DNA of 64,000 nucleotides from Tridacna crocea (lineage: Eukaryota > Mollusca > Bivalvia > Cardiida > Cardiidae). The notes under the pieces were generated by a model. The model saw only the letters and a list, made by a program, of their open reading frames with translations. It ran no database searches and was not told where the DNA came from. The translations under genes were made by a program, and so were the position numbers. The DNA is taken from NCBI GenBank assembly GCA_943736015.1, contig OX031071.1, forward strand, positions 11,566,119 to 11,630,118, in the 5' to 3' direction. Positions 1 through 63,767 of the stretch are shown one piece after another (position 1 is the stretch's first letter; the number at the start of each line of letters is the position of its first letter).

Positions 1-169
1 AACACTCTGGGAAAAGGAGAAAGTGCTCGTAACGAGCAATTTGTCCATTCCCACAGTGTTTTCTGCCCGTTCGGATAATTTTCTGCCATTGTTATGTAAG
101 TTGAAATTGTCGTCTGCTAGCTCTTTCAGTTTGGAAGAGTCTAAAATTTGTCGTTTGGGAAAAGGTTAA
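1..169 (-). mobile_element. TTAA-palindrome MITE, class B, cut by window start
   Basis: Right part of a copy: degraded palindrome with core GTGCTCGTAACGAGC, then the terminus GGGAAAAGGTTAA. Confidence 0.75.
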
Positions 170-275
170 ACCCTTCCCTAAACAAATTTCAGTATATGAG
201 TCATATTCATTTTGTCATCTGCAAATTCTTTCAATTTGGGCCAGTCCAAAATTTTGTCATTGGGTAAAGAGTTAA
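166..275 (-). mobile_element. MITE fragment, palindrome deleted
   Basis: Both ends are present (TTAAACCCTTCCC and GGTAAAGAGTTAA) but the palindrome is missing. It shares its left TTAA with the copy before it. Confidence 0.65.
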
Positions 276-490
276 AGGGACGATAAGAAATATAAAAAAA
301 CCCCCATAATACATGCATCATTTCATGTATAAGATAATAATCGTACATCATCTGAATGAAATATATTATGAAACTGGTGTTGGAAAAGTTTACTTCAAAT
401 GCCGGTTGAAGTTGTATAATCTCCATTTTGCAGTGAAGTAAAAAACTTTGTGGTGCTTTTTTGGTTGTGTTGTATTATATAACTGGAACA

Positions 491-588
491 ATGTTGGTTC
501 AAAATACTCAATATCCAAGTATGTGTGACGGGATGGATTTAGAAATGTTTTTTGAGCCGGACACCAGTGATGAAGATGATGATTACAG
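491..588 (+). CDS. KCNT (Slo2): KCNT exon 1: N-terminus, acidic
   Basis: Encodes residues 1-32 plus two bases of codon 33, ending at AG|GTAGAG. The start ATG at 491 has A at -3, and an in-frame TGA at 434-436 closes the frame upstream, so 491 is the only in-frame ATG. The segment is acidic near its end (DTSDEDDD) and aligns with the acidic stretch before the conserved pre-S1 region of vertebrate KCNT; the extreme N-terminus is not conserved. A CAG at 431-433 could be an acceptor, with untranslated bases 434-490 in this exon and a further 5' exon outside the window. No promoter could be recognised. Confidence 0.75.
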
Positions 589-3500
589 GTAGAGGGAACC
601 ATTTAGTTTACTTCTTAATTTGTATGTAGTTCTTTAAGCTCAGCTGAGTTTAACCCTTTACGCCATAAATACTCATTTCTATGCATTGCTTGTAGGAGCC
701 TTTGGAAAACATTGTGGCAAAAGGTGAAATTGCTCGTGACGAGCAATTTCACCTTTTGCCACAATATTTTCTATGCTATCAAAAGGTGTCATATACACAT
801 AATTTGGTTGGTTGTATTGGGGTTTAACGCCACTTTAACAGCTAAGGTCATATCATGGCGGTCGGTGACACACACGTGTTTCCTAGCTTTCCCACACCGG
901 TACTAACACAACTTTCTTTCCAAAGCCACCAACTACTTTTCTCACATGCTTCAGCAGAGGTGAGAGGCGAAAATACGCCGGAAAGAAAGTTCGCCTCAAC
1001 CGGGTATCGAACTCACAACCACCAGATCATGAGTCCAACACGCTCACCACTGAGCCACCCGGGCGGGCCATATACACATAAGAAAGAGCTTCATCCTTGC
1101 TGTTATCTAGGGTCAATTAGAGATACCATAGAAATGCTTTATGGGGTAAAGAGTTAAAATGACAATAAAGGCCAAATATATATATTTTTTCAGTTTATAT
1201 CTTATCATTTAAAAGTATGGAAATTATTGTGAAGATGGTAATTTGTTATTGTTTGGTCTGACAATCCAAGTGTTGGTCACCTACAGAGAACTAATTTCAA
1301 AACTAGGTTAACCCTTTACCAAACAACAACATTTTCGACTTGTCCAAATTGAAAGTATTTGCAGACAACAACTTCAGTGTGGCACAAATGATGCAATTTG
1401 TCTTTGATAGAACTAATTTCAAAACTAGGTTAACCCTTTACCAAACAACAACATTTTAGACTTGTCCAAATTGAAAGTATTTGCAGACGACAACTTCAGT
1501 GTGGCTCAATTAATGCAATTTGTTTTTGATAGACTTGAAAACATTGTGGGAAAAGGAGAAAATGCTGGTTACCAGCATTTTCTCCTTTACCCACAAGGTT
1601 TTCAAAAGGCTTCTCTGTTAGGGTCGTTAAAATTCGGGATTGTGTGGTAAAGGGTTAAAACCTACCAGTTAGCTGTATCTTTCATTTACTTTATGCCTAA
1701 TTTTGATTTTTTTTCGTGTGTTTTTGTAATTTTTTAAACAATTTGTTGTCTGCAAATACTTTTATTTTGGGTGGTGACATTTAATCTAAGATTTTGCCAT
1801 GTGGTTAAGAGTTCAAATATGTTCTCCAACACTACAAAGCTGATGGCAGCCATACTTCGTAAGGATGAATCTTTTGCTTAGCTATTCCAAACTTATTCAG
1901 GGTAATTTTTCTGTATAGAAGCCTGACTTCAACAGAAAGAACAAATTTTGAATTTTTTTTTATTTCTTGTTTGAAATCATGAGGCCTAGAGCTACCAATG
2001 TGGCTAAAATCATCTTGTGGACCTCTATCAGGACGTTCAAACGATGACTCCAGCATCAACATTGGACGTATCCCTGGAGTCACAAGTTTTGCATTGACTT
2101 TTGTAGTGAAATTCCGAAAGACCTTCTTGTACTGTATCACAAGAACAAGAGCTGTAAAATTTTGTACCAAAATTCTTAGAATTTTGTCTAACCCCATGTA
2201 GCATAAGTTTTTAAAATGTTTTACATCAAAGTTTTATGATTTTTAAAAGCTCATATTTTCCAAATCTTATGATGTATTTGGTTCAAGGAAGCATCTTCGT
2301 TGCATGGATATAAGTTGTGCATTGATCGGCAATGTGTTCAAACCCACAAAAGTATAAGTTTGTAGATTTGTTGAAAAGAGAATCAGTCTGTCTGGAAATG
2401 GGGAAATGGAGGACTGCCATTTAGAGCTAGTCATCTAAGGAAACATATTAATTATTTAACTTCATGTGTATAGAGCTGATTTTTGAGAAGTTTGTATACG
2501 AGTACTCTATTTGATATCTATCTGTAATATTTTAGTGTTTTGTTAGAGTTAGTACTCCTTGCTTACTTTCTTAACTAGGAAGAAGTCGTAACTGGTCATT
2601 TGATAATTTAGATTTAACACGGGTTCTTATATATTTTTGACGGGGTAAAAATATTTCTTCCCATTCAGAATCAAATGCTGAGCTATTCAAAATCTCTTAA
2701 AGAAACCTTTATGTGCATTCAATAGATTTAACAAAATACTACCCTGAAAAATACAAGTTTAATATTTTCAGTTTCACAGATCATTTTGCCAAGAAGCCAT
2801 TTTTGGTTTAGATCTCTCAAAATGACATTTCATGTTTTTTTACGGTTTTCATTGGTCAAATTAAGAGCAGTTCCAGGGAAGTGAAAAGTTTTGGGATTTT
2901 TTTCAATCATACAATGTAATGCTCATTTAAGGTTAAAAATAAGGACAGGAAGCTCCAAAGATCCTTTAAGCTTACTATTTGACTGTCTCAGACATTTATT
3001 GGCATTGCTTATGTCAGCAGTAAATCCAGTTGCAAAAATGACTAGAAAATTTTGAACGAACTGTACTTCGCCTCCAAGAAGTGTCAAGCGTTATATATGT
3101 CCACTAGTAATTGTTGATATACTTTTCTGGAGTCAAAATTCAAACTAACGTAAGTAATTTTCATTAAAAACTGTGGTTGCGGTGACAACAATTATACCCT
3201 TGAAAATATTCACCTTGCTTAATCATTCAGTGGCTCCTCCCCTGTGGCTCAGTGGTGAGCGTGTCGGACTCATGACCCGGTGGTTGTGATTACTATCCTT
3301 GGTTGAGGCGAACTTTCTTTCCGGCGTATTTTCGCCTCTCACCTCTGCAGAAGCATGTGAGAAAAGTAGTCGGCTAGTCGGAGGCTTTGGAAAGAAAAGT
3401 TGAGTTAGTACTGCTGTGATAAAGTCAGGAAACACATACATGTGTGTCATTGATCGCCATGATATTACCTTAGCTGTTAAAGTGGCGTTAAACTCCAATA

Positions 3501-6500
3501 CAACCAACGAACCAATAATCATTCAGTGATGACCGATTACAGTGCTTACAGCACTTTGATTTTTTTTTAAAGGAGGAATTGTGGGGTTCCAACTTTTTTC
3601 CCCCAAAGTTCAAAGGTCATTTACTAGGTAAAGAAACTCTAGAGCTTGATGTAATGTTATTCTTGTGTACTTTTATTGACCCTTTCATTTTGTGGGTTCA
3701 AACTGTGGCCTTGTTTAGGGACAAGCTATCTGATTGGCTAATTGGTGTAGGGAATTGGTCTCAATCAATCAGAAGAGTAGCAATTTATCTTTGAAATACA
3801 TTAGTATACTTGTTCATATGGATCTTTGATGAAGTCTGTCCCAGGCTTGGGTTTCTTAGCCCCTGGATTTCAGCATTTTCTTCTTTTCCTAGAATGTTTT
3901 CTTCTTTCCCAAAGGCAATGCTAAACTGTCAAGCTACATTTACATGAACATTGTTGCATGGCTTTCATAGTGGAAAAATCTAAAAAAAATTTGTCATGGA
4001 AAGGATTAACTCTTTACAACATTACAAAATTGTACCATTGTCCACATCAAAAGCATTTGCAGACCAGTTGACAGATTAACCCTTTCCCAAACGACAAATT
4101 TTAGACCCTTGCAAACTGAAAGAGTTTGCCGACGACAATTTTCGATTTTGTGAAAAAGGCAGAAAGTTCTCAAAAAGGGAAGAAAACTGGGGGAAAAGGA
4201 GAAATTGCTCGTTACAAGCAATTTCTCCTTTTCCCACAGTGTTTTCAAACGACTTTTACTGCAGATATGTAAAAACCAGGGCTTTTTTGGGAAAGGGTTA
4301 AATGTAGCTATCAACATAGAATTTGTCTTTCAAAGGTAAAAAAAAAAAGACTTGATGGGGAAAAAAATGGAAATGTGGGTAACCAGCACTTTCTCCTTTA
4401 CGATAATTTTCCACAGAATTTTCTTAAGCCTTCTTCTACTGGATTGTTAAAGCTGGTACATGTATTGTGTGGTGAAGACTTAACCCTTTACCACATAATT
4501 GCGACTTTTAATGACCCTGAGGAAGAAGGCATTTGAAACTACTGTGGGAAAAAGAGAAAATGCTGGTAACCAGCATTTTGTCCTCTTCCCACAATGTTTT
4601 CTCCACTTTCAAAGGCAAATCCCATTATTTTAGGCATGTAGAAATTGTTGTTTGCATACGCTTTCAATTCGGACATATCAGAAATGTTGTTGTTTGGTAA
4701 ATCATTAAAGTGTTCAATTTTCAGTCTATTGCTGATGTTTTATGTAAAAATATGTAAATATTACAAGTTCTAATCTTATCTTCGGATCCTTGGTATAGCT
4801 TGTCAGTCAAGTTGGGAATTTTCTTGATCCTCCTACCTCGTCCATTTGCATGAAAAATATTGTATTGTTTTATCAACACAAATATTTAAAACAGTAGAAA
4901 AACAACATGATCATTGTAAAGAAAAAATCAACTGTGAATAGTTTACAAGTAGTCCGATTGATTTGGTAATTGCTTGTCAAAAAAGGAACTGGATTTAAAA
5001 CCTCAATTAAAGAAGTTTTTGTTGATTTTATCTTGTGTATGGAATTTGAGAGATACTTGAAATAATACTTAAAGTAATGGATGGTTTTCATCATCATCAT
5101 CATCATCATCATCATAGGAAATACCATAAACTGATGTAAGTTGTGTTGTTGTTTAACTCTTTACCAAACGATAAAATTATAGACTGGTCCAAAATGAAAG
5201 CATTTGCAGACGGCAAAATGAAGATGGTTTAAATGACAGAATTTGTTCTTGATAGAGTAGAAAACATTGTGGGAAAGGGAGAAAATGCTGGTTACCAGCA
5301 TTTTCTCCTTTTCCCACAATGTTTTCAATAGGCTTCTTTCTCAGGGTCGTTAAAAGTCGGCATTGTGTGGTAAAGAGTTAACCCATTACCACACAATCCC
5401 TACTTTTGATGACCCTGAGATAGAAGCCTTTTGAAAACATTGTGGGAAAAGGAGAAAATGCTGGTGACCAGCATTTTCTCCTTTTCCCACAATGTTTTCC
5501 ACCCTGCCGGAAACAAAATTTTAATTTCAATTTTTTGAGTTACGTTTATTTTGTCTTCTGCTTGTGCTTTCAGTTTGGACGAGTCTAATATTTTGTTGTT
5601 TGGTAAAGGGTTAAACTTTCATCAAACAATCCATAGTTAGCCCAGCTGTTTTTGGAGAAAAATCTTGAGGTGATAAATGTCTTGAACTCTTTAGCAGACA
5701 ACAAAAATTTAGACTGGTCAGAATTCAAAGCACTTGCAAATGACAAAGTAAGCGTATAAACTCAAAAATTGAAATTTGTTTCCAGCAGGGAAGGAAACAC
5801 TGTGGGAAAAGAAGAAAATTCTGATTACCAGACTTGCTTCTCAGGATCGTAAAAGCCAGGGATTGTTTGGTAAAAGGTTAAGCTCTGCACTGACGACTCT
5901 GTGATATCGTATATCTGCAATTACTTAGCCCATTACCACACAATACTGACTTTTGACGCCCCTGGAAAGAAAGCTTTTTGAAAACATTCTGGTAATCAGT
6001 ATTTTCTCCTTTTCCCACAATGTTTTCTTCCCTTCACAAAACAAATTTCAAATTTTCAGTCACTTTTATTTTGTCGTCTGCAAATGCTTTCAATTTGGAC
6101 CAGTCAAAAATATTGTCGTTTGGTAATGGGTTAAGATACTTAGTTCAAATTTGGACTGGAAAGTATCAAAAGTGGAACCAGTGCTTTAACTCTTTACCAA
6201 ACAATCCCTGGTTTTTACGAACCTGAGATAGAAACCTTTTGAAAACATTGCCAGAAAAGGAGAAAATGCTGGTAACCAGCATTTTCTCCTTTTCCCACAA
6301 TGTTTACTACCCTTCACAAAACAAATTTCAAATTTTCAGTCACTTTTGTTTTGTTGTCTGCAACTGCTTTCAATTTAGAGATGCCTGAAATATTTTGTTT
6401 GGTAATGAGTTAACCCTTTACCACTCAAAAATCCCCACTTTAAATGACGCTATGCAAGAAGCCTTTTGAAAACATAGTGGGAAAAAGAGAAAATGCGGGT

Positions 6501-9500
6501 AACCAATGTTTTCTATCTTCCAACAGGAATTTTCAATTTTTCAACCACATTTATTTTGTTGTCTGCAAATGATTTCAATTTGAACTGGTCTAAAATTTTG
6601 TCGTTTGGTAAATAGTTAACCCATTACCACACAGTCCCTACCTTTGACGCCCTTGAGAAAGAAGCCTTTTAAAAACACTATGACTTTTCCCACAATGTTT
6701 TCTACCCTTCCCAGAACAAACTTCTATTTCTTAGTCTCTTTTATGTTGTCGTCTGCAAATGCTTTCAATTTGGACCGGTCTAAAATTTTGTGGTTTAGTA
6801 AAGAGTTAAGGCAGCTAACCTCTATATAGTTTTGAAAGTTTTGCCTCTTCTTTAACTTGACATTAAGCCCCATTTTTACAGAGCATGGCTCATTTTTCTT
6901 TTCTTACAGTTCGGCCCCAGTGAAGTATTTCGAACATGATTCCATCCGAGGTAAACTGAGACGGCTTCTTATAAGGAACTCTAGTGCACGTAAGTTTTAC
7001 ATTTTACTGAAAGTCTATGAAATTTCAATCCCACTTTTTTCCATACAATCCTGAGTTTTTACAACTCTGACAAAGAGGCCATTTGAAAAATTGTGGGAAA
7101 GAGGAGAAAATGCTTTTTTAACTCTTTTCCACACAATCCCGACTTTTAACATTCATGAGAAAAAAAAACAGCATTTTCACCTGTTCCCACCTTGTTTTCT
7201 ACCCTTCCCAAAACAAATTTCAATTTTTCAGTCACATTTATTTTGTGGTCTACAAATGCTTTCAATTTGGACCAGTCTATAATTTTGTTATTTGGTAAAG
7301 AGTTAAAGCAAATCCCATCATTTGAGAAGTTTAATTTGTTGGTTGTACGTGATTTCTCTTTTTGCAAATCCAAAGTGTTGTTGTGTGAAAAAAGTTAAAA
7401 ACCTACCTTAAGCTTGTTTGAAACATTTCACAAAAGATTAATATTTTAAGGACAGGATAACAAAATTCTTAATAGGGTATAAAACAATGTGAGAACAAGC
7501 CTTGTGCAAGTGATTTGCTACTTATTTTACAATAATTCCTTAATTTATCAAACTAGGGTACAAAAAAAATTTTAAGGTAAGTAAATGTAGATAATAAATT
7601 TATTACAACTTTCAACGCCTTTTAACATGTTCCCAAACAACAAATTTGTAGACATGTTTGTACATGAAAGCATTTGCAGATGACAAAGTCATTGTGCCTG
7701 AATTTACAAATATGCCTTTGAAAAGGTAGGAAAAATTGTGGGAAAATTATGAGTTATGTCTTTGAAAGACTAGAAAAAATTGTTCGAAAAAGAGAAATTG
7801 CTGCTCACCAGCACTTTCTCGTTTTCCCATAATTTTTTCAGAAGTCTTTTTCACATGTTCTTTTAAAGTTAGGCATGTTTAGTAAAGGGCAAACTATTTC
7901 TGAGAACATCAAGGAAAAGGAGGTGTTTAGAATGGACAAATTTGATTGAGACTGACAGTACTGTGGCATTATAAATCAAAGTATCGAAAATGCTAATGTG
8001 GCATTTGTCAAGGAAGTGTGGAATTAATAATTTTTGGAAAAAAAAAAGAAATATTATTCAAATATTAAGTTGAAAGACATTCTACTAAGCAAATTGATAC
8101 CTTTTTTTGGTTAACCCAATACCACACAATCCCTACTTTTGACGCCCATGAGAAAGAAGCCTTTAGAAAACACTTACTTTTATTTTGTCATCTGCAAATG
8201 CTTTCAGTTTGGACCAGTCTAAAATTTTGTCATTTGGTAATGGGTTAAAGGGAAAGTGCCAAATCCAAAGTCTTGAATATTTGTGTATTGGTGCTGTCCC
8301 TATGATTATTCACATGAGGAGTCAAGAGTAATGTCCCTTGACGGTAGTATGCGTGATGGGTAGAATGCATATAAATAAAATAGAATTAAGTTTATACCTA
8401 AAAACTGTGATATTTACATATCGTTGGTTGTCAAGATCTAACTCCCAACATTACAATCAATTATTTCGATCTGTAAATATTCATGCACAATAGAATGGAG
8501 TAACATGCAAAAATGGGATGAGCAAGCCCAGGGACAAACTGGTTTTCAAGCAAACAAGCCTAGAACCAAAGCAGTCAGTAGATAAATTTTGTGCACACTA
8601 TTGTGCCAGTAGAGGCTATAAGCAGGTGAAGCTATTTCCAATCAATGAAGAAGTATATATTTCCACAATCAGTTGCCTAATCCACTTTATTTTACTATGC
8701 CATTGCCAATTACATATGTGAGTGAGAAAAATTGAGTTTACTTGGGTTTATGTCCTTCAATTTTGTAGAAAATACGATACATGGCCTTCAAAACTCAATA
8801 TTGGACATTTTGTTGTTTGGTAAAGGGTTAAAACTCTCCAGAAAACCTGTTCTACAAGCTGTTAAACCAACTTTAGCTTGCTTTTTGTGGTATTTGTCGA
8901 AGACAATGCTGCTATGACTTCAATATTGAATGTTAATGATGTCATGTTACCAAACGCTAAAAGTACATTGATGTGGTTGTTACAGTATATAGATGAGATA
9001 CTGAGATTTCATTCTGTTACAGGTTTAGCCTTCACTGTATTTGACTTGTTGGTTCGAGTGCTTGTGTGTCTGTTATATGTGAGTCGTGTTATATTGGATG
9101 ATTTGTCACAGTACAAATGGTAAGTTTTTGCTTTTTTTTTTTCTAACATAACTTTGAGGTATTGATTGATTGTATGGTGTTTAACCCTTTACCACACAAT
9201 CCCGACTTTTAACGACCCTAAGAAAGAAGCCTTTTGAAAACACTGTCGGAAAAGAAGAAAATGCTGGTAACCAGCATTTTCTCCTTTTCCCACAGTGTTT
9301 TCTACCCTTCCAAAACCAAATTTTAATTTTTCGGTCACCTTTATTTTGTCGTCTGCAAATGCTTTCAGTTTGGACCAGTCTGAAATTTTCTCATGTGTTA
9401 AAGAGTTAAGGCCATTTTCAACATATTTTAGTTTTATTGCAAGTGACTGTTGTGGAAGAATTTCAGTTTTTAATTCTATGGTTAATAAAACATTTAAATT

Positions 9501-12500
9501 GTTTCATGTAAAGAGTAGTCAACTGCTTCATGTAAAGAGTGGTTTAAGAAATTATCTTCTTTCTATTGTGGTTTATCATTCAATAAACCACAGTTGTGAG
9601 TTAGGAGGCGCAATAAATAATCCATGAGGGTGATAGCCCGAGTGGGTTATTCATAGCGCCTCATAACTCACAACATGGTTTATTGAATGATATACCACGA
9701 TAGAAAGAAGATTATTTCGATTCTAACATTGCCAAATCTTAGTGAAAGGAAAACAGGTTCAAACTTAGAGTAAAAACATGGATGAAGGTTATGTTCCATT
9801 CAATAACTCGCTCATTGAATGACGTCACTCGATATAGAAGGACATCACTCTACATGGATTGTCGCATATTTTACCACGTTTTCCTTGCACTGTGTTTATA
9901 GAGCCAAATTGGCGTGTCATGTTAGAATAGTTGATATGCAACAACAGGCACTTGTTATTTACATAATATTATATTACTAAAAAAGTTAGGTTGGCAAATG
10001 TAACAGTGTAAAATTCAGCGAAATCAAGAATGGACAATCATAGCTTTAATAGAAGATGATAAATAGAAGTCCAATCTAAGGTGTTATGTAATGTAATAAG
10101 TGTTAACTCTTTACCACACAATCCCTAGTTTTAATGACCCTGTGAAAGAAGCCTTTTGAAAACATTTTGGGAAAAGGAGAAAATGGTGGTAACCAGCATT
10201 TTCTCCTTTCCCCAAAATGTTTTCAACCCTGCTGGAAGCTAATTTCAATTTTTGAGATAAGTTTATTTTGTTGTCTGCAAGTGTTTTTAATTTGGACCAG
10301 TCTACAATTTTGTTGTTTGGTACAGAGTTAAACAGCTTGACATGTGTGCACTAGCCGGAGCCATTTGTTTGCTAGACGCTTTCATTTGGACTTGCCACAA
10401 TGTTGAACCTTGGTGCTTTATGTCACTTCCACATTATTTCAGTTATATAAAGGCAAGAGATAGCTTGTTCATGTATGTCTTGGGGTTCAACAGTGCTAGC
10501 CTAGGGCTCTAAGGTGATTTGCTAAATGACACACCCATCAAAAAAACCCAATGTTTTCATTGAGATTTGAACCATGGGCCTCTAGGTTGCAAGATCCTAC
10601 ACTTAACCACTGAGACGTACAGGGTCTGTATTCACCAACCATTCTAAGAACATTCTTGGTCTTATTCTTCAGAATTATGTCAATGTGAAAGTAACAGAAT
10701 TTCTGATTGGCTAAACCATTTTCTGATTGGCTAAACCAAATGGTTTAGCCAATCAGAATTCTTGTTACTTTCACAGTCAAGAAATCTTGAAGAATAAGAC
10801 CAAGAATGTTCTTAAGAATTGGTTGGTGAATACGGACCCAGGACCTTTATATGAATGGTTTGTGAAAACAGGTCAAAATCTCATACAATGTTTATCTTGA
10901 TTTTTGTTTATGTCTATATTTCGCAGTAAAGGGGATCCATGTGACTTTTGTGACGATGAAGTTTTTGATACCAACTGTACTCTACCTGCAGTTAACTGGT
11001 ATGTATTATCAAAAACACACCGGCATCCTTTATCAGAATTCAATATAACATGACACTGTCATCTCATGAATTTGAGATAAAAATTGAATCACTTGTCTGA
11101 ATTATAGTTGTATATGTTTCTCATCTGAGCACAAAATAACCCATTACCACACAATCCCTACTTTTGATGCCCCTGAGGAAGAAGCCTTTAGAAAACAATG
11201 TGGGAAAAGGAGAAAATGCTGGTTACCAGGGTTTTCTCCTTTTCCCACAATGTTTTCTACCTTCATAAAACAAATTTTAAATTTTCAGTCACTTTTATTT
11301 TGTCGTCTGCAGGTGCTTTCAATTTGGACAAGCCTAAAATATTGTCTTTTGGTAATGGAATAATCAAGTTGAGCTTTTGTGAACATTCTGTGTCTGTTAT
11401 TCATCTCAAAGGTACTAACAGTTACCTTGTATATATACTCTAGAGGCCACATTTTCACATGAAAATTGGTAATATCATTTATTTTGATGAAACCTGATAT
11501 CTCGGCATTGTATAAAAATTTGTCATGTAATATCGAAATATAGTTTGCTGGATCAAATGGCAATATTTTGGGTTCAATACCAGTGAAAGTTGGTCAGAGT
11601 CTTGGTCTTGTTAATGTTTTGAATGAGTTTGGAAGTGGGTTTGGTAGGATCAAAAAGTAGATCAGTGGGACAAAATTTAAGAATAAAAAGATGTTTTCAG
11701 TTTGAAAGTATCCTTAACTGACTTATTCTGTCCAGTTCTTATAAAAATTAACCAGAATGTTTGTCTTAAACTCTTTACAGATGACAAAATTTTAACCCTT
11801 TACAAAACAATCTCTGGTTTTTACGACCCTGAGATAGAAGCCTTTTGAAAATATTGTGGGAAAAGGAGACAATGCTGGTAACCAGCATTGTCTCCTTTTC
11901 CTACAATGTTTTCTGTCCCGTTGGAAACAAATTTCAATTTTTGAGTTGCATTTATTTCGTCGCCTGCAAGTGCTTTCAACTTAGACCAGTCTTAAATTTT
12001 GTCGTTTGGGAAAGGGTTAAACTGGTCCAAATTGAAACTGCTTGCAGATGACAAAATGAACATAACTCAAAAATTGAAATTTGTTTCCAGTAGGGTAGAA
12101 AACTTTGTGGGAAAAGGAGAAAATGCAGGTTACCAGCATTTTCTCCTTTTCCCACAATGTTTTCAAAAGGCTTTTATCTCAGGGTTGTAAAAACCAGGGA
12201 TTGTTTGGTACAGGGGTAGTTACCACACTCTCAAAAGTTTGATACAACTTTGATACTTGGTCACATTATGCACGGGATCAAATCTTAGGAAAACCGTGTG
12301 TATGCTGTGACTGAAATATTTTCAGTTCAAAACTGACAAAAGTCTGGCAGAATGTTTGTCTTGATGCTATCTCTGACAAGTTTGAAAACTGGTCAAGTTC
12401 CATAAAAGAAAGTAGGTGATGGGGGACAAATCTTAGAGAAACCTTGTGAACACTCTGGAAGCCACATTTCCAGCCTAATACTGATACTGGTAAATACTCT

Positions 12501-48500: not shown

Positions 48501-51500
48501 CTTTGTTTTCAATGGGCTTATTTCTCAGGACTGTTTAAAACGCCTGATGCAGTGAAGGATGAAAGTTAACTGTTTAATACATTGAAAGTAAAACTAAGAA
48601 TCTTACTTTAACTCTTTACGAAACGAGAAAATTTTAGACTGGTCCAAATTGAAAGCATTTGCAGACGACAAAATAAAAGTGACTGAAAATTTGAAATTTG
48701 TTTTGTGAAGGGTAGAAAACATTGTGGGAAAAGGAGAAAATGCTGGTTACCAGCATTTTCTCCTTTTCCCACAATGTTTTCTAAAGGCTTCTTTCTCAGG
48801 GGCGTCAAAATTTGGGATTGTGTGGTAAAGGGTACAATGCTTCTACTGAAGCAACATATAATGTACTAGTAGTTTGTGAATGCTTTGAAATTAGACTGGT
48901 CAGAATTCTTTTTGTCGGTGTGAGTTATAGAAGATTTTTAATAGTTAGCAGCCTATTGTAATTTCTCCAGGCTGCAGTCATTAGAACCTGTTGTAAAGTG
49001 CAGCCAGAAGAATGTCAAGTTAACTCTTTCCCAAACAATCCCTGGTTTTCGCAACTTTTTGAAAACATTGTAGGAAATGGAGAAAATGCTGGTAACCAGC
49101 ATTTTCTCCTTTTCCCACAATGTTTTCTACCATTCCAAATACTGAAAGAGCGAAACACCAAATAACCATATACAGACAGATCCTGTGTACCACACAATCC
49201 CCAATTTTAACCACTCTGAGGAAGAAAGCCTTTGTAAATATAGTGGGTAATGGAGGAAATGCTGGTAACCAGCATTTTCTCCTTTTCCCACAATGTTTTC
49301 TAACTATCTCAAAACAAACTTCAATTTTTGAATCACATTACTTTTGTCATCTTCAACTGCTTTAAAATTTGGACTTGTCCGAAATTTTGTTGTTTGGTAA
49401 AGATTTAACCTATAACTGGTGAAAAAACTTTTTTGTAAAAAGACATTGTGCTTGTTACAAGTACCGAACTCCTTCCTAACAATATTTCCCATAAAATTGA
49501 ACTTTTACATGTTTCCTATTTTACTTTAATTGCAATCTGGACCAGTCAAGAGTAATGCAGGGACACATATAGACACAAGTACTATGAATACCTTGTTTCT
49601 TGTTTCAGAGAGAATGGCTGCAGAGTTACAAAGAATGCTAGAATCTGAGGATGAAGATGAGGATTATGGAGAGGAGGAGAGTGTATTTAACACTATTACA
49701 ATACAACAGGGGTAAGTTTGAACATGACTTTATTACAGCTAAAGTATGTCAGAGCATAACATCATTGCAAAACAACAGGGGTAAGTTTAAACATGACTTT
49801 ATTGCAGCAAGGGTAGATTTCAACATGATTGCATTACAGCAAGGAAATATTTGACCATAACATCATTACAGTACAGCAGGGGTAAAGTGTAAACATAACT
49901 TTATTACTGAAGGAAAAAGGTTTGAACATAAGATCATTACAATATAGCAAGGGTTAAGTGTAAACTTGACTTCATTACAGCAAGAAAAGGTTTTAATGTA
50001 GGATCATTACAGTACAGCAATGGTTAAGTATAAACCTGACTTCATTACAGCAAGAAATGGTTTAAACATAAAATCATTACAGTACAGCAGGAGTAAAGTG
50101 TAAACATGACTTCATTACAGCAAGGAATGGTTTAAACATAAGATCATTACAGTACAGCAGGAGTAAAGTGTAAACATGACTTCATTACAGCAAGGAAATG
50201 TTTAAACATAACATAATTGCAGTACAGCAAGGGTTAAGTGTAAACATGACTTCATTACAGCAAGGAATGGTTTAAACATAAAATAATTGCAGTACAGCAG
50301 GTGTAAAGTGTAAACATGACTTCATTACAGCAAGGAATGGTTTAAACATAAGATCATTACAGTACAGCAGGAGTAAAGTGTGAACATGACTTCATTACAG
50401 CAAGGAATGGTTTAAACATAACATAATTACAGTACAGCAGGAGTAAAGTGTGAACATGATTTCATTACAGCAAGGAATGGTTTAAACATATTTAAGATCA
50501 TTACAGTACAGCAGGAGTAAAGTGTAAACATGACTTCATTACAGCAAGGAATGGTTTAAACATAGCATAATTACAGTACAGCAGGAGTAAAGTGTGAACA
50601 TGACTTCATTACAGCAAGGAATGGTTTAAACATAACATAATTACAGTACAGCAGGAGTAAAGTGTAAACATGATTTCATTACAGCAAGGAAAGGTTGAAA
50701 CATAATATCATTACAGTACAACAGGAGTAAAGTGTAAACATGACTTCATTACAGCAAGGAAAGGTTTGAACATGACATCATTACAATACAGCAGGAATAA
50801 ACATTAAAGGTTTGGACATGACATAATTACAATAAAGCAAGGGTAAAGTGTGTACATGACTTCATTACAGTAAGGAAAGGTTTGAACATTAGATCATTAC
50901 AATACAGCAGGGGTAGATTTATCGCCTTGCAGAGATCCATTCACCCTATAAAGTTAAACCCCTTGTTTTAACAACCAACAGGAAGATTTAAAAATGCGCT
51001 TTGGGAAATTTAAAATGCTAGTTTGATGTTTGAAATACATTTTCTTTAATTTAGAAATTCACCTTTTGTCTGTGGCAAGTTAATCTTTTACCACACAATC
51101 CCAACTTTTAACGAACCATAGTGACAAGCCTTTTGAAAACATTGGTAACCAGCATTTTCTCCTTTTCCCACAATGTTTTCTACCCTGCTTGAAACAAATT
51201 TTAATTTTTGAGTTACATTTATTTTGTTGTCTGCAAGTGCTTTCAATGATTTACGGATGTTTTGGTAACAGACGAGTTGGGTAACATAGACTTAGAGAGT
51301 AAATCGATTGGATGTTTCGGTAACAAAGCAATTATATAGTGTTTATGTATTGCAATGTTCTTTACCCCCAACGCATGGCTTTATTTCGTTATTTAAAACT
51401 TTAATTTGTAATTTCCATTATGTTTCATAAATATTTTTTGGTTATGTACCTCATCTCATGCTCTATGTAATGACCATGTGGATTGCCTATCTTTCAAGCG

Positions 51501-54500
51501 AAAGAGGGTGGAAAGTGAAAAAATAAAAGTTTTGAACCTATCTATCAAGGGATAACTGGGTGAAAAGTGCAAAAATAAAAGGTTTGAACTTAACAAAGCC
51601 ATACATTAGGTGTCACAGGACATAAACACAATATAATTGCTTTGTTACCGAAACATCCAGTTGATTTACTCTATAAGTCTATGTTACCAAACTCGTCTGT
51701 TACCAAAACATCTGTCACCCCTTTCAATTTTGACCTGTCTAAAACTTTGTTTTATGGTAAAGAGTTAAAGGCCTCTACATGGCATAAACTGATTTATTGC
51801 CATAAATCTAATAATTCAAAAAAGAAAAAATACTGTAACATTGCATAAACTTTTTTAACATGTAAATCATATAAAACTTACATCATAGAACATAAAAGTC
51901 TCACATCCTCACAAAATACTAAATCCAGTGTCTGTTGTGGTGGATATCTGTGGTTTGCAATTATACTCGTAAGTTAACTGAAAATGGAAGAAAATAAACA
52001 ACAAATAACTGGTGTATTGTCAAAAATAAGTGACAGGTTAACTCTTTACTCCATAGATACTCATTTGTACACACTTGTAGGAGTGTTTGGAAAACATTGT
52101 GGCAAAAGGTGAAATTGCTCGTGACGAGCAATTTCACCTTTTGCCACAATGTTTTCTACACTATCAAAAGGTGTCATATACACATAAGAAACGGCTTCAT
52201 CCTTGCTGTTATTTAGGGTCAGTTAGAAATACCATAGAAATGCCTTATGGGGTAAAGTGTTAAATAGACTGCTAGTAGATGTTTTATGTATAAGATATAC
52301 ATGTACATGTATTATCTCAATATTCTTACCTTAATTTTAGATATGAGTTGGCCAACAGAGTAAGAAGAGCGACCTACAGCCCAGGTGACTCCAACAATGT
52401 AAACAGTTTTCACCAGATGGCTATGCTAAACAGTAAAAGTAGCAACAGGTTGGTCTTTGAGTTATGGACTTAACTCTATACCACACTAGAAAATTTTAGA
52501 ATGGTCCAAATTGCACGCATTTGCAGACGACAAAATAAAGGTGGCTGAATGAAATTTGTTCTGGGAACGGTAGAAAACACTGTGGGAAAAGGAGAAAATG
52601 TTGTTGACCAGCATTTTCTCCTTTTCCCAGTGTTTTCAAAAGGCTTCTTTCTCAGGGGTGTCAAAAGTAGGGATTGTGTGGTAATGGGTTAATGTTCAGA
52701 AGTTTAAAAAAATCTTTCACTAAAAAAAAAGAACAAATATTATAATTATGTCATGCTTCTAAGCCCTTTTTTGTTGGGACTTTCATCAAAATCTAATACA
52801 GTAAATTATTGTTTCGGTAATTCCCTGTGGTAAACCCCACCCCCACTTAACCAAATGACAAAATTTTAGACTTGTCCAAATTCAAAACATTCACAAGCGA
52901 CAAAATAATCGTAACTCAGACATTGAAATTTGTTTCCAGCAGGATAGAAAACATTGTAGGAAAAGGAGAAAATGCTGATTACCAGCATTTTCTCCTTTTC
53001 CCCCAATGTTTTCAAAAGGCTTCTATCTAAGGATCGTTAGAACCAAGAATTCTTTGGTTAAGGGTTAAGAAGGCATTACCTTATTAACCCATTACTACTC
53101 AATCCCTACTTTTGATGACCCTGAGAAAGAAGCCTTTAGAAAACATTGTGGGGAAAAGGAGAAAATGCTGGTAACCAGCATTTTCTCCTTTTCCCACTTT
53201 GTTTTCTACCCTTCACAAAACAAATTTTAAATTTTCAGTCACTTTTATTTTGTCGTCTGTTATTCACAGAATATTATGATATTTTATTTTTCACTCACAG
53301 CCCAGGTCCAAGTGAGTTACAGAGAAAGGTGTTGTTGAGTGAGGCACACAACCATTCTGATGACAGTGACAACACGGCTCATCATTTTGATCATGTAGAT
53401 GGGACAGACGGACAGGTGCTCGGGCAGTATTCAGATATGGGACAAGATGAGTAAGTTTAAAAAAGGAAGGGGGGCGGGGTCGATTCATCCCAATTATGCA
53501 CGATACCCAGCAAGTCATCATATAGTTGATAAAACGCACAGACAAAATGCTGGTAACGGGCATTTTCTCCTTTTCACACTGGGCCTTGGTATAACATTTC
53601 ATCTGAAAGACTTTTAGCTGTTTTAGATGGCCAGCCGTGGGGATCCAACCCACACCCTCAAGTGAATTGAAACATCACGTTCACAAGTCGTACTCCCTAC
53701 CTATTGAGCTATGCGGGCTGGTCACTAAAGTACAGTATGCCTGCCTGGGTGGCTAAGTGGTGAGCGTGTTGGACTCAAGACCTGATGGTTGTGAGTTCGA
53801 TACCCAGTGAGACGAACTTTCTTTTCGGTGTATTTTCGCCTCATAGCTGTGCTGAAACATGTGAGAAAATTAGTTGGTGGCTTTGGAAAGGAAGTTGTGT
53901 TAGCACTGGTGTGAGAAAGCCAGGAAACACGAGTGCGTCACTGACTGCCATGATATGACCTTAGCTTTTAAAGTGGCTTTAAACCCCATTACAACCAACC
54001 AACAACTAAATTACTGTATGTATTTGCAGGTTTATTACTGGGCCCCCGCCTGTGACCTTGTATGTAGGATCCAAGAGGGCCATATGTCATCTAATGAAAG
54101 AACAGAGACCATTGTGTTGTCTAGAATGGGGAAAGGTAAGTTATTATTTAACCCTTTACTCCATAGATACTCATTTCTACGCATTGCTTGTAGGAGCCTT
54201 TTGAAAACATTGTGGCAAAAGGTGAAATTGCTCGTCACGAGCAATTTCACTTTTTGTCACAATGTTTTCTGTTCTATCAAAAGGTGTCATATACACATAA
54301 GAAACGGCTTCATCCTTGCTGTTATTTAGGGTCAATTAGAGAGAATGGCTTGCTTATTAACAATTTTTTAGACTGATTTAACAAAACTTTATCTCAAACT
54401 CTAACTCAAGTCAGATACTATATGTCTCTTATTTCAGGATTGCACTCACTGTAAATACAAAAACACCAATGATGACAGATGGGACCATCAGTTGATCATT

Positions 54501-57500
54501 ATGGCTTCACAGAAGGCCTGTAATGGAATCTACAACTTCATCGTACCTTTACGGTCACAGTTTATAGGGATGAAATCTCTTTGTCCAATTATACTGCTAT
54601 TAGCAGAAAAGTAAGTGTTTACAACTGTAGAATTAGGGTTATGAGTCTGAGAAATTAACCCATTACCACATAATCCCTACTTTTGATGCCTCTGAGAAAG
54701 ATGCATTTAGAAAACATTGTGGGAAAAGGAGAAAATGCTGGTAACCAGCATTTTCTCTTTTTCCCACAAAGTTTTCTACCCTTCACAAAACAAATTTCAA
54801 ATTTTCAGTAACTTCTATTTTGTCGTCTGCAAATGCTGTCGATTTTGACAAACCTAAAATTTTGCCGTTTGGTAATGAGTTAAGCCCATACTAGGTTGTT
54901 TCTATTATAGAGAAAAGTGTTGCCCCTCAAAGCACTAAGCACAACGAAATGTAACTTTGTGGGCAGTTTTAGATCAAGAAAAAAGTTCGTTTGATTTATT
55001 TAGTGCTCAAAGGGTTTAATTATGATAATTCTTATGAAAGTCCGTAACAAAGAAACAAATTAATAAATGCATGGCAGAAATAAGGGACCGGGAGGGATTA
55101 GAACCCCAGACCTACTGTTAGAAAGGCCAATACCTTAACCACTGAGCCAAAGAGATATCTCTCTGACACAGTAATTAGGTATTGTATTTAAATCGGGACA
55201 ATGCCATGCAGGTAGGAGTGGTCTCCCGTAACACACCCTCTCTTAAAGTTATTATTTATTGATGACTCAAAGCCTTATTTGGCAGAAAGTCCATTTTTGG
55301 ACAACAAATAGGATTACAGGCTCAATGGCCAATCCCGGACGAGCCCCCATCTTACGAACATAGTCCCTAACATTGAAACAAATGAATAAATGGATGGCAG
55401 AAATAAGGGACCGGGAGGGATTTGAACCCCAGAACTCCCCAGACGAGAGGCCAATACCTTAACCACTGAGCCAAAGAGATATCTCTCTGACGCAGTAGTC
55501 AGGTATTGTATTTAAATCGGGACAATGCCATACAGGAAGGAGTGGTCTCCCGTAACACACCCCTTGTTAAAGTCATCATTTTTGATGACTCAAAGTCTTA
55601 TTAGCCAGAAAGTCTGTTTTTGGACAACAAATGGGATTACAGGCTCAATGGCCAATCTCGGATGAGCCCCCATCTTAAGAACATAGTCCCTAACATTGAA
55701 ACAAATGAATAAATGCATGGCAGAAATAAGGGACCGGGAGGGATTTCAACCCCAGAATTCCCGTACGAAAGGCCAATACCTTAACCACTGAGCCAAAGGG
55801 ATATCGCTCTGACACAGTAGTCAGGTATTATATTTAAATCGGGACAATGCCATGCAGGAAGGAGTGGTCTCCCGTAATATAATGTGTTCACAGAAGGATT
55901 TAGATATTTTTACAGGATTTATATATTTGTGTTTATACTTCTAACAAACTACATTCATGAACACTATACTAACCCATTAGCACACAGTCTCTACTTTTGA
56001 TGACCCTGAAAAAGACGCCTTTCGAAAACATTGTGGGAAAAGGAGGAAATGCTGGTGACCAGCATTTTCTCTTTTTTTCAAAATGTTTTCTACCCTTCAC
56101 AAAACAAATTTCAAATTTTCAGTCACTTTATTTTGTCGTCTGCAGATGCTTGTAGGAGCCTTTGGAAAACATTGTGGCAAAAGGTGAAATTGTTCATCAG
56201 GATCAATTTCACTTTTTCCCAAAATGTTTTCTATGGTATCAAAAAGTGTCATATACACATAAGAAACAGCTTCATTCTTGCTGTTTTTTTAGGGTCAATT
56301 AGAGATACCATATAAACCGGTTAAAGTAATATCTTGGTCTATGTAGTGTAATAAATGTCTTTTTTTACTGAAAATACAATTTTCTGTTTTTCATCAGACC
56401 AGACAAGATGTTTCTGGAGACAATCTCGTACTTTCCTTTAGTCTACTGGATGTTTGGCAAAATAACAAGGTAAGCTAGGTGTTCATTATATCTCAAAATG
56501 ATGTGAGATTGCTTGTCATTTTGCGTTATGATTATGGTTAATTCTGTTTTGCCAGAATCATTGTTCTGTATTTCAAATCATGCAATTTTAGATATATTAG
56601 TCAACTAGTAAATATGATATAAACAAAAAAAAAAATATGTTTATGCAGTATTCTGCCATGATCTGGTTAACTCTCTCCATCACAAGAAAATTTTAGACCA
56701 GTCAAAACTGAAAGCATTTGCAGACGACAAAGTAAATATGACTGAAATAGTAAAATTTGGTCTGGGAAGGGTAGAAAACATTGTGGGAAAAGGAGAAAAT
56801 GCTTGTTACCAGCATTTTCTCCTTTTCTCACAATGTTTTCAAAAGGCTTTTTACCCTGGATCAGTAAAATTCAGGATGGTGTGGTTAACCCATTACCACA
56901 CAATCCGTACTTTTGACGCCCCTGAGAAAGAAGCCTTTAGAAAACATTGTGGGAAAAGGAGAAAATGCTGGTTACCAGCATTTTCTCCTTTTCCCACAAT
57001 GTTTTCTACCCTTCACAAAACAAATTTCAAATTTTCAGTCACTTTAATTTTGTCGTCTGCAAATGCTTTCAGTTTGGACGAGTCTAAAATATTGTCATTT
57101 GGTAATGGGTTAAGAGGTAATTCATTTTGGAAAAGTCCGGACTTTTGTAGTCTGGTAAAAAAGTTACTGTATCAAACTACTTAATATATAGTTCTACCCT
57201 GCTATTGGTTGTTACATATTTTACCTTCTGTTTCAGCGTGGATGACTTACTGAAAGCAGGTATAAACAAGGCGTCCCATCTTGTAGTTGTGAACAAAGAG
57301 GAGCAGGACTTTGCATGTGAAGACACACTGGCGGACTCAGAGACCATTGTTGCTGTTCAGACTATCTTCAAGTAAGCTTTAGCTCTCTACTATCCATCAA
57401 AATTACCAGCATTTTGTCCTTTACCTACAATGTCTTAAAGGCTTCTTTCTGAGGGTTGTCAAATGTAGGGATTGTGTGGTAATGGGTTAATTAGACCAAA

Positions 57501-60500
57501 TTTCAAACCTAATCTTTCATTTTTCCTTCATTTTTCAGGTTGTTCCCAAACGCTAACATAATCACAGAGCTCAACCAAGCTTCTAACATGAGATTTATGC
57601 ATTTTCGAGCCCATGATGAATACTCTCAGAAAATATCGGACCTAGAAAGGGTAAGTATTTATGGTGTTTCAACTTCATGAACTTTTATACTTCATTGGAT
57701 CCAAGACTTTGTCATATGGTGAAGACGTCATGTTTTCACTTTTTTTTTTCCAAAATAATATCGCCTGCAACTAACACAATTTTGTCCTGTATCAGACTAC
57801 ATCTGATTACTACATTTTGCAAAAACTTAGACATATTATAATTACTTAAACCCTTTCCCAAACGGCAAATTTTTGACTAGGCCAAATTGAAAGTATTTTG
57901 CAGATGACAAATAAACAGTTGCTAAAAAGATGATTTTTCTATATGATAGGGTAGAAAACATTGTGGGAAAAGGAGAAAATGCTGGTTACCAGCATTTTCT
58001 CCTTTTCCCACAAAGTTTTCAAAAGGCTTCTATTCCTGACCCGTAAAAACCAAGGATTGTTTGGGAAAGGGCTAAACTCAGACTAGTTAACATGCATATT
58101 ATAATTACTTTAAACTCAGACTAGTTGTTACCTATCAAAAAGGGTACCTAAAAAATATAAGGACTGGTAACCATCAGAATATCTTGATGTAGATATATCC
58201 CCGTTTCAACCTGAAATTTTCATTAAAAATAAATCTATTTCTTAACCATTTATACCCCATAAGGCATTTCTATGGTATCTCTAATTGACCCTAAATAACA
58301 GCATGGATGAAGCCATTTCTTATGTGTATATGGCACCTTTTGATAGTGTAGAAAACATTGTGGCAAAAGGTGAAATTGCTCGTCACGAGCAATTTCACCT
58401 TTTACCACATTTTTTTCCAAAGGCTCCTACAAGCATTGCGTAGAAATGAGTATCTATGGAGTAAAGAGTTAAAATAATTGCAGTGTTGGCACCCACATGC
58501 ATTCCTCATGTTTTCTTTTTAATTTTTAGAAACTGAAGCATAGTATGACATCTAATCTCAGTCATATATTTCGTCTGCCATTTGCTGCAGGTCACGTATT
58601 TAGTGCAAGCATGTTGGACACACTACTCTATCAGGTAAAACATTAAAATCTTTTAGTTAGTTCATTAACTCTTTACCACACGAGAAAGTTTAGACCAGTC
58701 CAAATTGAAAGCATTTACAGACTACAAAATAATTGTGACTGAAAAATTGAGATTTGGTTTGGGAAGGTAAGAAACATTGAGGGAAAAGAAGGAAATGTTG
58801 GTTACCAGCATTTTCTTATTATCCCACAATGTTTTCAAAAGGCTTTTTTTCTTAGGGTTGTTAAATGTTGGGATTGTGTGATAAGGAGTTAACCATGTAC
58901 GACACAATTTAGATTTTAATAACTCTACTGAAGGCATCTTCGCGAGCCAAGGTTACAATCACTATGTGGATCTTACCTTGGTTGATTGAGCCCGATTTCG
59001 CGATTCCTGCAATGCGCCCTCTATTGGATGCTGGTTATTACCCCCCTTTACATCATATTTCTGAAAGCCAAAGAAATATCGTTGTACAAACCGCTTATGA
59101 ATACAATTATTCAGCATGAAGCGATAAGCAGACATCCACGTGGGTTTCGATGTTTACCTTCTATTCTGTCGCAAATTATTCTATTTTCTATCAAAGATGA
59201 AATGCTACGAGAGGTTTCATTCGTTGCAGCTAGAGCTGGCTGCATCCAATAAAAAAACATATTGGGGGAATGTTAAAATCAAGCTCGATCTGCCAAGGGT
59301 AGAGTAGCCTAGTGAATCTTCAGCCTTGGCTTGCAAAGATGTACTGAAGGAGGCTTTTGAATACATTGTGGAAAAAGGATAAAATGGTGATGACTAAAAT
59401 TTTCTCCTCTTCCTACAATGTTTTCTACACTATTGATGAGGAATTTCAGTATTTGAAACATATTCACTTTTTTGTCTGCAAATACTTTCAATTTGGACTA
59501 GTCTAGAATGTTGTTGTCAGGCAAAGGGTTAACCCTTTACCAAATATTCCCTGGCTTTTCGACCCTGAGATATAAGTCTTTCGAAAACATTGGGGAAAAG
59601 GAGAAAATGCTGGTAACCAGCATTTTTTGCTTTTCACACAATATTTTTCTCAGGTAGCAAAGTCAGAAGTCATCATATAACCATGATTTAACTCTTTACC
59701 AAACGACAAAATTTTGGTCTGGTCCAAATTGAAAGCACTTGCAGACGACAAAATAAACTAATTTAAAGATTGAAATTTGTTTCCTGCAGGGTAGAAAACA
59801 TCGAGGGAAAAGGAGAAAATGCTGGTTACCAGCATTTTCTCCTTTTCCCACAATGTTTTCAAAAGGCTTCTATCTCTGGGTCGTAAAAACCAGGGATTGT
59901 TTGGGAAAGGGTTAAAGTATTATCATCCTAATGCTTCCAGTGCAACATGGAATGAAATTTATTAGTTGACAAGTAAGGATTTATACTGATATAATATTTT
60001 TACACATTTCTAAACAATTAGAAATGCCTTTTATGTCTGTCTGGTAGATATTTGTGGACACTTTTGTATGTTTCCTGAAAAGGGAGGTAATGATTATCTC
60101 CCTTTGTAATGAGAATAAACTGGTTTTAGATTTATGAATTATAATTCTAATAAGGAAAAGGTGGCTTGGTTAACCCTTTACCACACAATCCTGACTCTTA
60201 ACGATCCTGAGAAAAAAGCCTTGTGAAAACAACCAGCATTTTCTCTTTTTCCCACAATGTTTTCTAACCGTTCCAAAACCAAATTTCAATTTTTTCAGCT
60301 GCATTTATTTTGTCGTCTGCAAATGCTTTCAATTTGGACTGATCTAAAATTTTCTCGTTTGGTAAAGAGTTAAAGTAGTTCAATAATACCAGTACTCATT
60401 TTTAATCAAAGCCAAGTTTGCAGAATAATATTAAAGTGGAAGTAAGTGTTTTCCATTAGAAGGGTACTACCTTAAAATGTTGTTTGCAGATGCTTTGAAT

Positions 60501-63445: not shown

Positions 63446-63538
63446 GTAATATATTTTTCCCTTTGAAAAACCTTGAAGCAGCAACTTACTCATATGAAAA
63501 TCTGGTTTCACAAAACATACATCTTACTTTGGGATGGT

Positions 63539-63767
63539 TTAACCCATTACAACACAACTAAATTGTAGGCTAGCCCAAATTGAAAGCATTTGCAGACGAC
63601 AAAATTAAAGTGACTGAAAATTTGAAATTTGTTTTGTTAAGGGTGGAAAACATTGTGGGAAAAGGAGAAAATGCTGGTTACCAGCTTTTTCTCCTTTTCC
63701 CACAATGTTTTCTAAAGGCTTCTTTCTCAGGGGCTTCAAAAGTTGGCTTTGTGTGGTAATAGTTTAA
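63539..63767 (+). mobile_element. TTAA-palindrome MITE, class A
   Basis: 229 bp, TTAACCCATTACAACACAAC to GGTAATAGTTTAA. Confidence 0.92.

Follow-up and report, generated by a model that had tools for sequence, protein, structure and literature searches.

The MITE copies that pack this stretch of a potassium-channel gene are best explained as non-autonomous elements moved repeatedly by a TTAA-specific transposase, most likely piggyBac, with an internal palindrome that would act as a cis element at the DNA level. We put the probability of this reading at roughly 60%. In the proposed mechanism, a TTAA-specific cut-and-paste transposase would have moved the copies repeatedly over a long period, and the palindrome would contribute to mobilisation as DNA, a role suggested more weakly than the piggyBac mover. 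After insertion, deletions strike the palindrome above expectation, and the damaged forms seen appear to have given no further copies. Accounts of MITEs normally rest on their ends alone, the parts expected to be recognised by a transposase. In this case the ends are variable, the best-kept part is a palindrome inside the element, and two families share the same geometry. The palindrome offers a concrete candidate, open to test, for the internal sequence behind the very high copy numbers that some TTAA MITEs attain.

A dense MITE family in a channel gene

The window, that is, the whole 64-kb stretch of DNA analysed, was searched with a profile built from its repeats. The 231 raw profile matches, many of which correspond to the palindrome matching both strands, were reduced to 139 non-overlapping fragments of the main family (F1) and parts of a second one (F2), found between positions 1 and 63839 and covering 24,323 bp (38.0% of the window). 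At least 100 of the 227 model columns are spanned by 115 of the 139 fragments, and MITE cover ranges from 26 to 49% per 8-kb bin. These figures bear out the original prediction of about 100 copies making up about a third of a channel gene.

Near-full-length fragments number 74, with 37 on each strand (including two F2 copies) and a modal length of 229 bp. TTAA is present at both edges in 47 of them, at one edge in 18 and at neither in 9. The 47 TTAA-bounded copies range from 189 to 237 bp, with 22 measuring exactly 229 bp and 32 measuring 228–230 bp. The elements are short, non-coding, present in many copies and homogeneous in length, with TIRs and a target duplication, as is characteristic of MITEs. 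Two modules make up each element: short TIRs beside the TTAA, and a 67-bp palindrome, nearly perfect, whose position is fixed and off-centre. The palindrome is far beyond chance, and the copy number appears to be so as well.

The 47 TTAA-bounded copies lie at:
1430–1658, 4076–4301, 4480–4708, 5153–5381, 5378–5614, 6186–6413, 6410–6619, 6616–6809
7118–7306, 9181–9409, 10103–10331, 11792–12020, 12908–13137, 13134–13370, 19600–19830, 20787–21015
23115–23343, 24400–24628, 24971–25179, 29353–29581, 29765–29993, 30955–31182, 32074–32303, 32376–32605
34132–34337, 34410–34638, 35218–35446, 39635–39863, 42056–42284 (F2), 43087–43315, 44026–44254, 44866–45093
45856–46084, 46997–47208, 47307–47535, 52038–52263 (F2), 52470–52692, 54655–54883, 56885–57113, 58665–58892
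59688–59915, 60170–60373, 60536–60761, 60758–60979, 62320–62549, 62881–63108, 63539–63767

The host is a KCNT/Slo2-like potassium-channel gene, in line with the channel gene originally proposed, and its richness in introns suggests an animal source. Four of the five open frames tried match KCNT1 chains, and the fifth (8866–9120) gave no KCNT1 match:
24020–24295, plus strand: open frame with a KCNT-like pore exon (KCNT1 pore domain, E 1e-21)
28655–29044, plus strand: open frame with a KCNT-like RCK exon (KCNT1, E 5.6e-33; Pfam Slo-like_RCK, 2.8e-20)
57151–57372: open frame matching KCNT1 (E 1.2e-5)
63260–63463: open frame matching KCNT1 (E 9.9e-6)

Beside the RCK exon, 156-bp and 166-bp tandem-repeat arrays occupy positions 25686–28510.

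Target site, element ends and the candidate mover

The target site was read from 142 confident ends, among the 148 ends of the 74 near-full copies, whose TIR lies at most two mismatches from one of five variants. Position by position, TTAA is preserved in 131, 128, 130 and 131 of these 142 ends, and the flanks drop to background. The target site comprises 4 bp, and not TA, because the outer T and A are kept as well as the inner TA. On the same counts, TTAA as the favoured form of a TA target was rejected, and so was the TA duplication of Tc1/mariner. Several copies allow the insertion site to be compared with related sequence or show an unusual duplication:
44026–44254, minus strand: F1 copy with an empty-site match; its flanks, once joined, match three tandem-repeat units with a single TTAA
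55128–55231, 55452–55555 and 55774–55879: the single-TTAA repeat units matching those joined flanks
11792–12020, plus strand: F1 copy inside an older family copy; its flanks, once joined, match intact copies without a gap at the junction
32376–32605, plus strand: F1 copy inside an older family copy; its flanks, once joined, match intact copies without a gap at the junction
31785–32012, plus strand: F1 copy inside an older family copy with a gapless junction, ambiguous, with TTAA on one side and TTAT on the other
11136–11363, plus strand: F1 copy with ATAA at either side, by flank reading a 4-bp duplication of non-canonical sequence

The ambiguous nested copy at 31785–32012 fits a TA target equally well, and a fourth nested case (4076–4301) gives a poorer alignment, with a 5-base gap near the junction. 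Taken with the 142 ends, the empty sites and the nested insertions leave the 4-bp TTAA target duplication well supported. TTAA targeting had been put forward from the start, and the empty-site test, run inside the window, left it standing, the joined flanks of 44026–44254 matching units with a single TTAA. The empty site was supplied by the tandem repeat at 55039–55877.

The element ends read TTAACCCTTTACC and GGTAAAGAGTTAA, with the variants CCCATTACC and CCCTTTCCC. In the confident ends, C occupies the first TIR position in 130 of 142 cases and the third in 132, position 2 is C in 81 and T in 58, position 4 is T in 101 and A in 39, and position 7 is A in 113 and C in 28. The piggyBac TIR motif is given as CC[C/T]T with TTAA in the available part of PMC2872659. 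Many ends in the window read CCCT, but many others, with CTC or CCCA, depart from the strict motif. The same portion of that paper describes coral piggyBac elements terminating in CCCTTTCCC and CCCATTCCC, ends that resemble variants found in the window's family, and PMC2872659 was the only literature match to TTAACCCTTT together with piggyBac.

From the TTAA, the termini and the likeness to the coral piggyBac ends, the mover would most likely be a piggyBac-superfamily transposase acting in trans. No transposase-sized frame was found in the window, whose longest stop-to-stop frame has 201 aa, and no Pfam transposase match among 10 of its longer frames, in agreement with the original prediction. 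The naming of piggyBac as the mover is retained in part: the TTAA and the C-rich/G-rich termini fit and Kolobok termini disagree, but no transposase was found in the window. It is unlikely that another TTAA transposase, Kolobok or Sola3, moved the family in place of piggyBac. Sola3 gives TTAA duplications. Kolobok also has the TTAA target duplication in common with the window's family, but its termini, in the part of PMC9587614 available, are 5´-RR…YY-3´, in contrast to the CC…GG termini found here, where C is so predominant as the first base (130/142); Kolobok is disfavoured by its termini.

The internal palindrome in two families

The consensus palindrome (model columns 55–121) consists of a single central base with 33 complementary pairs in unbroken succession about it. 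It occupies bases 56–122 of 229, in agreement with the off-centre, nearly loop-free palindrome of about 30 bp per arm first described. A representative copy is located as follows:
56885–57113, plus strand: intact F1 copy, 229 bp, with TTAA at both ends (profile; folds as DNA, z −11.5)
56940–57006, plus strand: 67-bp palindrome of this copy (RNA fold, z −15.3)

The palindrome is the most conserved part of the element. Its departure per site is 5.4%, against 18.8% elsewhere in the 71 near-full F1 copies (TIRs 13%, left spacer 19%, right spacer 27% and right subterminal part 14%), a contrast possibly exaggerated by misaligned spacer columns and by copies having been found partly through the palindrome. 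In a tree built without the palindrome, 198 palindrome changes are terminal and 20 internal, compared with 959 and 293 outside it (Fisher 6e-7); tree changes are not independent, and these counts are unfiltered, since a support filter had no effect. The excess of terminal changes indicates that the source lineages altered the palindrome little and that decay after insertion hits the palindrome too. The palindrome was also considered as a copy of the element ends, and six tests of this likeness (four of an arm against an end, a fifth using a variant end and a sixth comparing the left end with the right) gave no significant result, the best p being 0.057.

The view of the repeats as one family holds for F1, but the set includes a distinct second family, F2, with 8 loci in the window:
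42056–42284, plus strand: full F2 copy, 229 bp, palindrome at 42111–42177 (sequence comparison)
52038–52263, plus strand: F2 copy, 226 bp, palindrome at 52090–52156 (sequence comparison)
650–802, plus strand: F2 copy interrupted by another dispersed repeat, with a further piece at 1069–1123 (sequence match)
30419–30599, plus strand: partial F2 copy
31213–31415, minus strand: F2 copy (matched part)
54148–54342, plus strand: partial F2 copy
56147–56305, plus strand: partial F2 copy
58278–58472, minus strand: F2 copy (matched part)

The full F2 copy follows exactly the F1 plan, with the palindrome starting at base 56, 107 bases after it and a total of 229 bp. The palindromes of both families agree at 58 of 67 bases, and the nine differences correspond to the centre and eight stem bases, all eight of which are compensated, forming four pairs. 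The left spacers show no alignment above chance (11/30, p 0.17) and the right spacers a weak trace of common descent (36/94 ungapped, p 0.007; gapped, p 0.30), while the 12 bases to the left of the palindrome are alike (10/12). This comparison indicates that the palindrome and its position have been kept by both families and that most of the rest has drifted nearly to randomness.

Covariation between the arms was analysed in 71 hairpins (68 distinct), consisting of 65 of the 66 ungapped palindromes of the F1 profile (41516–41582 was left out, and two of the 65 are F2) and six of F2. Both-sided changes occur in 42 cells, compared with 7.7 in shuffles and 6–14 in slid controls. Since 37 of these 42 cells belong to five pairs, much of the covariation signal is carried by a few events inherited by many copies. 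Pairs with a both-sided change number only 9, the shuffles giving 5.5 and the slid controls as many as 8. The F1-only tree contains 12 compensatory co-changes (8 terminal and 4 internal), against 1–3, none of them internal, in slid controls, and 8 non-complementary co-changes at true pairs. Both the conservation of the palindrome above that of the ends and the covariation of its arms go beyond what the original prediction saw. The symmetric base swaps that are tolerated fit a structural role better than a strict sequence reading.

As a cis element, the palindrome could serve a transposase dimer or a host protein as a symmetric docking site, or could form a cruciform or hairpin. The docking model is offered because piggyBac and piggyBat transposases, in the portion of PMC11707139 available, bind palindromic motifs as dimers via paired C-terminal domains. 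Their ends are like those of the window's family in having TTAA and palindromic motifs, which in piggyBac are placed asymmetrically from the tips. However, according to the same portion, these palindromes measure about 14–19 bp and lie near the tips, whereas the one in the window measures 67 bp and starts 56 bp in. For the other option, it is tentatively conceivable that TTAA-type MITEs can depend on an internal cruciform or hairpin, with a long palindrome, set at a constant distance from the ends and selected for both symmetry and sequence, as an essential element of mobilisation or as the start of replicative amplification. If true, this would suggest a function for the conserved cores, so far unexplained, of CMITE and other piggyBac MITEs.

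The symmetry of the palindrome could instead result from copying and not from selection, with one arm templating the other in replication or repair. As the origin of the symmetry this is rather improbable; as an explanation for the covariation, arm-to-arm templated copying is a serious rival, and it may act beside selection. Complementary changes, including transversions, occur in both arms of one and the same copy. Without the three commonest pairs, 17 complementary cells are left, compared with 4.7 in whole-arm shuffles (the two F2 copies account for 4 of them), the 8 terminal-branch compensatory co-changes exceed the 1–3 of the slid controls, and palindromes attract deletions in the window, which bears on arm copying. 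Nevertheless, most changes are unmirrored (285 one-sided versus 44 complementary two-sided cells in all 98 copies), only 10 of 85 palindromes are perfect, and arm correction alone provides no explanation for the sequence conservation between families (58/67). Complementary transversions in both arms are found in the copies at 19601–19829, 11793–12019, 41407–41625 and 10104–10330, for which arm-to-arm templated correction is possible. In three of them the change at the pair is unique among those listed, and the copy at 10104 shares its pair type with the one at 17050.

That the palindrome is selected at the RNA level, for instance as a hairpin yielding small RNAs, and not at the DNA level seems very unlikely, although its predicted transcript folds very stably (−51.7 kcal/mol, z −15.3). 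Among one-sided changes, G–U (67) is not favoured over A–C (81), which gives no support for selection at the RNA level. Moreover, near-full copies are equally distributed on both strands of the gene (37/37), and no Rfam family matches the palindrome, the sole match above the gathering threshold being a weak tRNA elsewhere in the window. A DNA-level cis element is still the preferred reading of the palindrome.

Palindromic repeats with TTAA ends include the PALTTAA repeats of C. elegans. The closest precedent seen is CMITE from Acropora corals, a group of piggyBac-type MITEs with a core shared between families, whose function was left open by the authors in the part of PMC2872659 available. CMITE is TTAA-flanked with C-rich ends (CCCTTTCCC and others), as is the window's family, and has been linked to piggyBac-like elements. 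Furthermore, both show an internal region conserved above the TIRs between families, and adjoining copies. They differ in length (about 100 bp in CMITE versus 229 bp), and the published 60-bp core of CMITE does not form a long palindrome, with a predicted −11 versus −53 kcal/mol for the palindrome of the window. CMITE arrays were attributed to slippage, in contrast to the unrelated abutting insertions in the window. Identity of the CMITE core with the palindrome is not supported, local alignment being no better than with shuffles (p 0.48). Thus, going by the text available, a core common to piggyBac MITE families was already known from CMITE, and the new features here are the long palindromic core, the compensated changes and the fixed position.

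No record of the family was found among the matches listed in the literature searched with the sequences CCCTTTACC, TTAACCCTTT and TTAACCCTTTACC. A 31-base piece of the palindrome gave 0 matches to viral contigs.

Accumulation, decay and neighbouring repeats

The 71 near-full F1 copies depart from their consensus by 14.5% on average (range 4–32%), so the family is not the product of one very recent burst. The mean pairwise difference is 26% over 98 copies; the 98-copy comparisons and the set of 85 palindromes include two F2 copies, and the main tests were repeated without them. Sequence divergence and the existence of subfamilies point to repeated activity. The copies had been described as very uniform at 229 bp, which is true of their length (32 of 47 at 228–230 bp) but not of their sequence. 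Similarly, of the recent or repeated bursts suggested by density and uniformity, repeated activity is retained, but a recent burst fits the lengths only, the sequences having diverged.

Some copies adjoin one another, as in the following case:
6186–6809, plus strand: three copies in head-to-tail order, with a single shared TTAA at each junction (profile and abutment analysis)

End-to-end abutting pairs number 12, six in the same orientation and six in the opposite one, against 24.1 (sd 3.9) in a simple simulation of random TTAA choice, so there is no excess of abutments. In none of the 9 comparable abutting pairs is either copy the closest relative of the other. The mixed orientations, the absence of an excess and the lack of nearest relatives among partners make these copies look like independent insertions. 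That the density arose by local tandem or segmental amplification, and not by separate insertions, is scarcely credible. The 12 abutments themselves and one tandem duplication of a 122-bp unit at 1287–1533, which holds one end of a MITE copy, speak for such amplification, but it is disfavoured by the abutment count, orientation and kinship.

Deletions of at least 15 bp overlap the palindrome in 13 of 16 cases, compared with 8.2 expected (p 0.011), the 15-bp limit having been chosen after viewing a list of 21 deletions of at least 6 bp plus three chained cases. Without these three chained cases, 10 of 13 deletions overlap the palindrome (p 0.020). No deletions in the window share both breakpoints, although some share the left one. 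The closest pair (64–82 and 64–84, in the copies at 5927 and 51082) does not belong to near relatives, with ranks 41 and 37 of 97. Another pair, outside the palindrome (173–199 and 173–196), may be inherited, its copies ranking 9 and 10 of 97. In the small sample that the window represents, copies with a damaged palindrome appear to be separate casualties that were not passed on to further copies. The approximately 70 long palindromes constitute a natural set in which the decay of such sequences in an animal genome can be followed.

Other repeats are also present in the window. Tandem repeats with 70-, 195- and 323-bp units lie at 49822–50801, 38870–39633 and 55039–55877, respectively. A dispersed repeat of about 260 bp, SINE-like by eye, is found at 804–1157, 3244–3511, 45322–45576 and 53749–54002, the first of them inside an F2 copy. 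Finally, the weak tRNA match is located at 15509–15589 (29.7 bits, with a cut-off of 29) and is possibly part of a tRNA-derived repeat.
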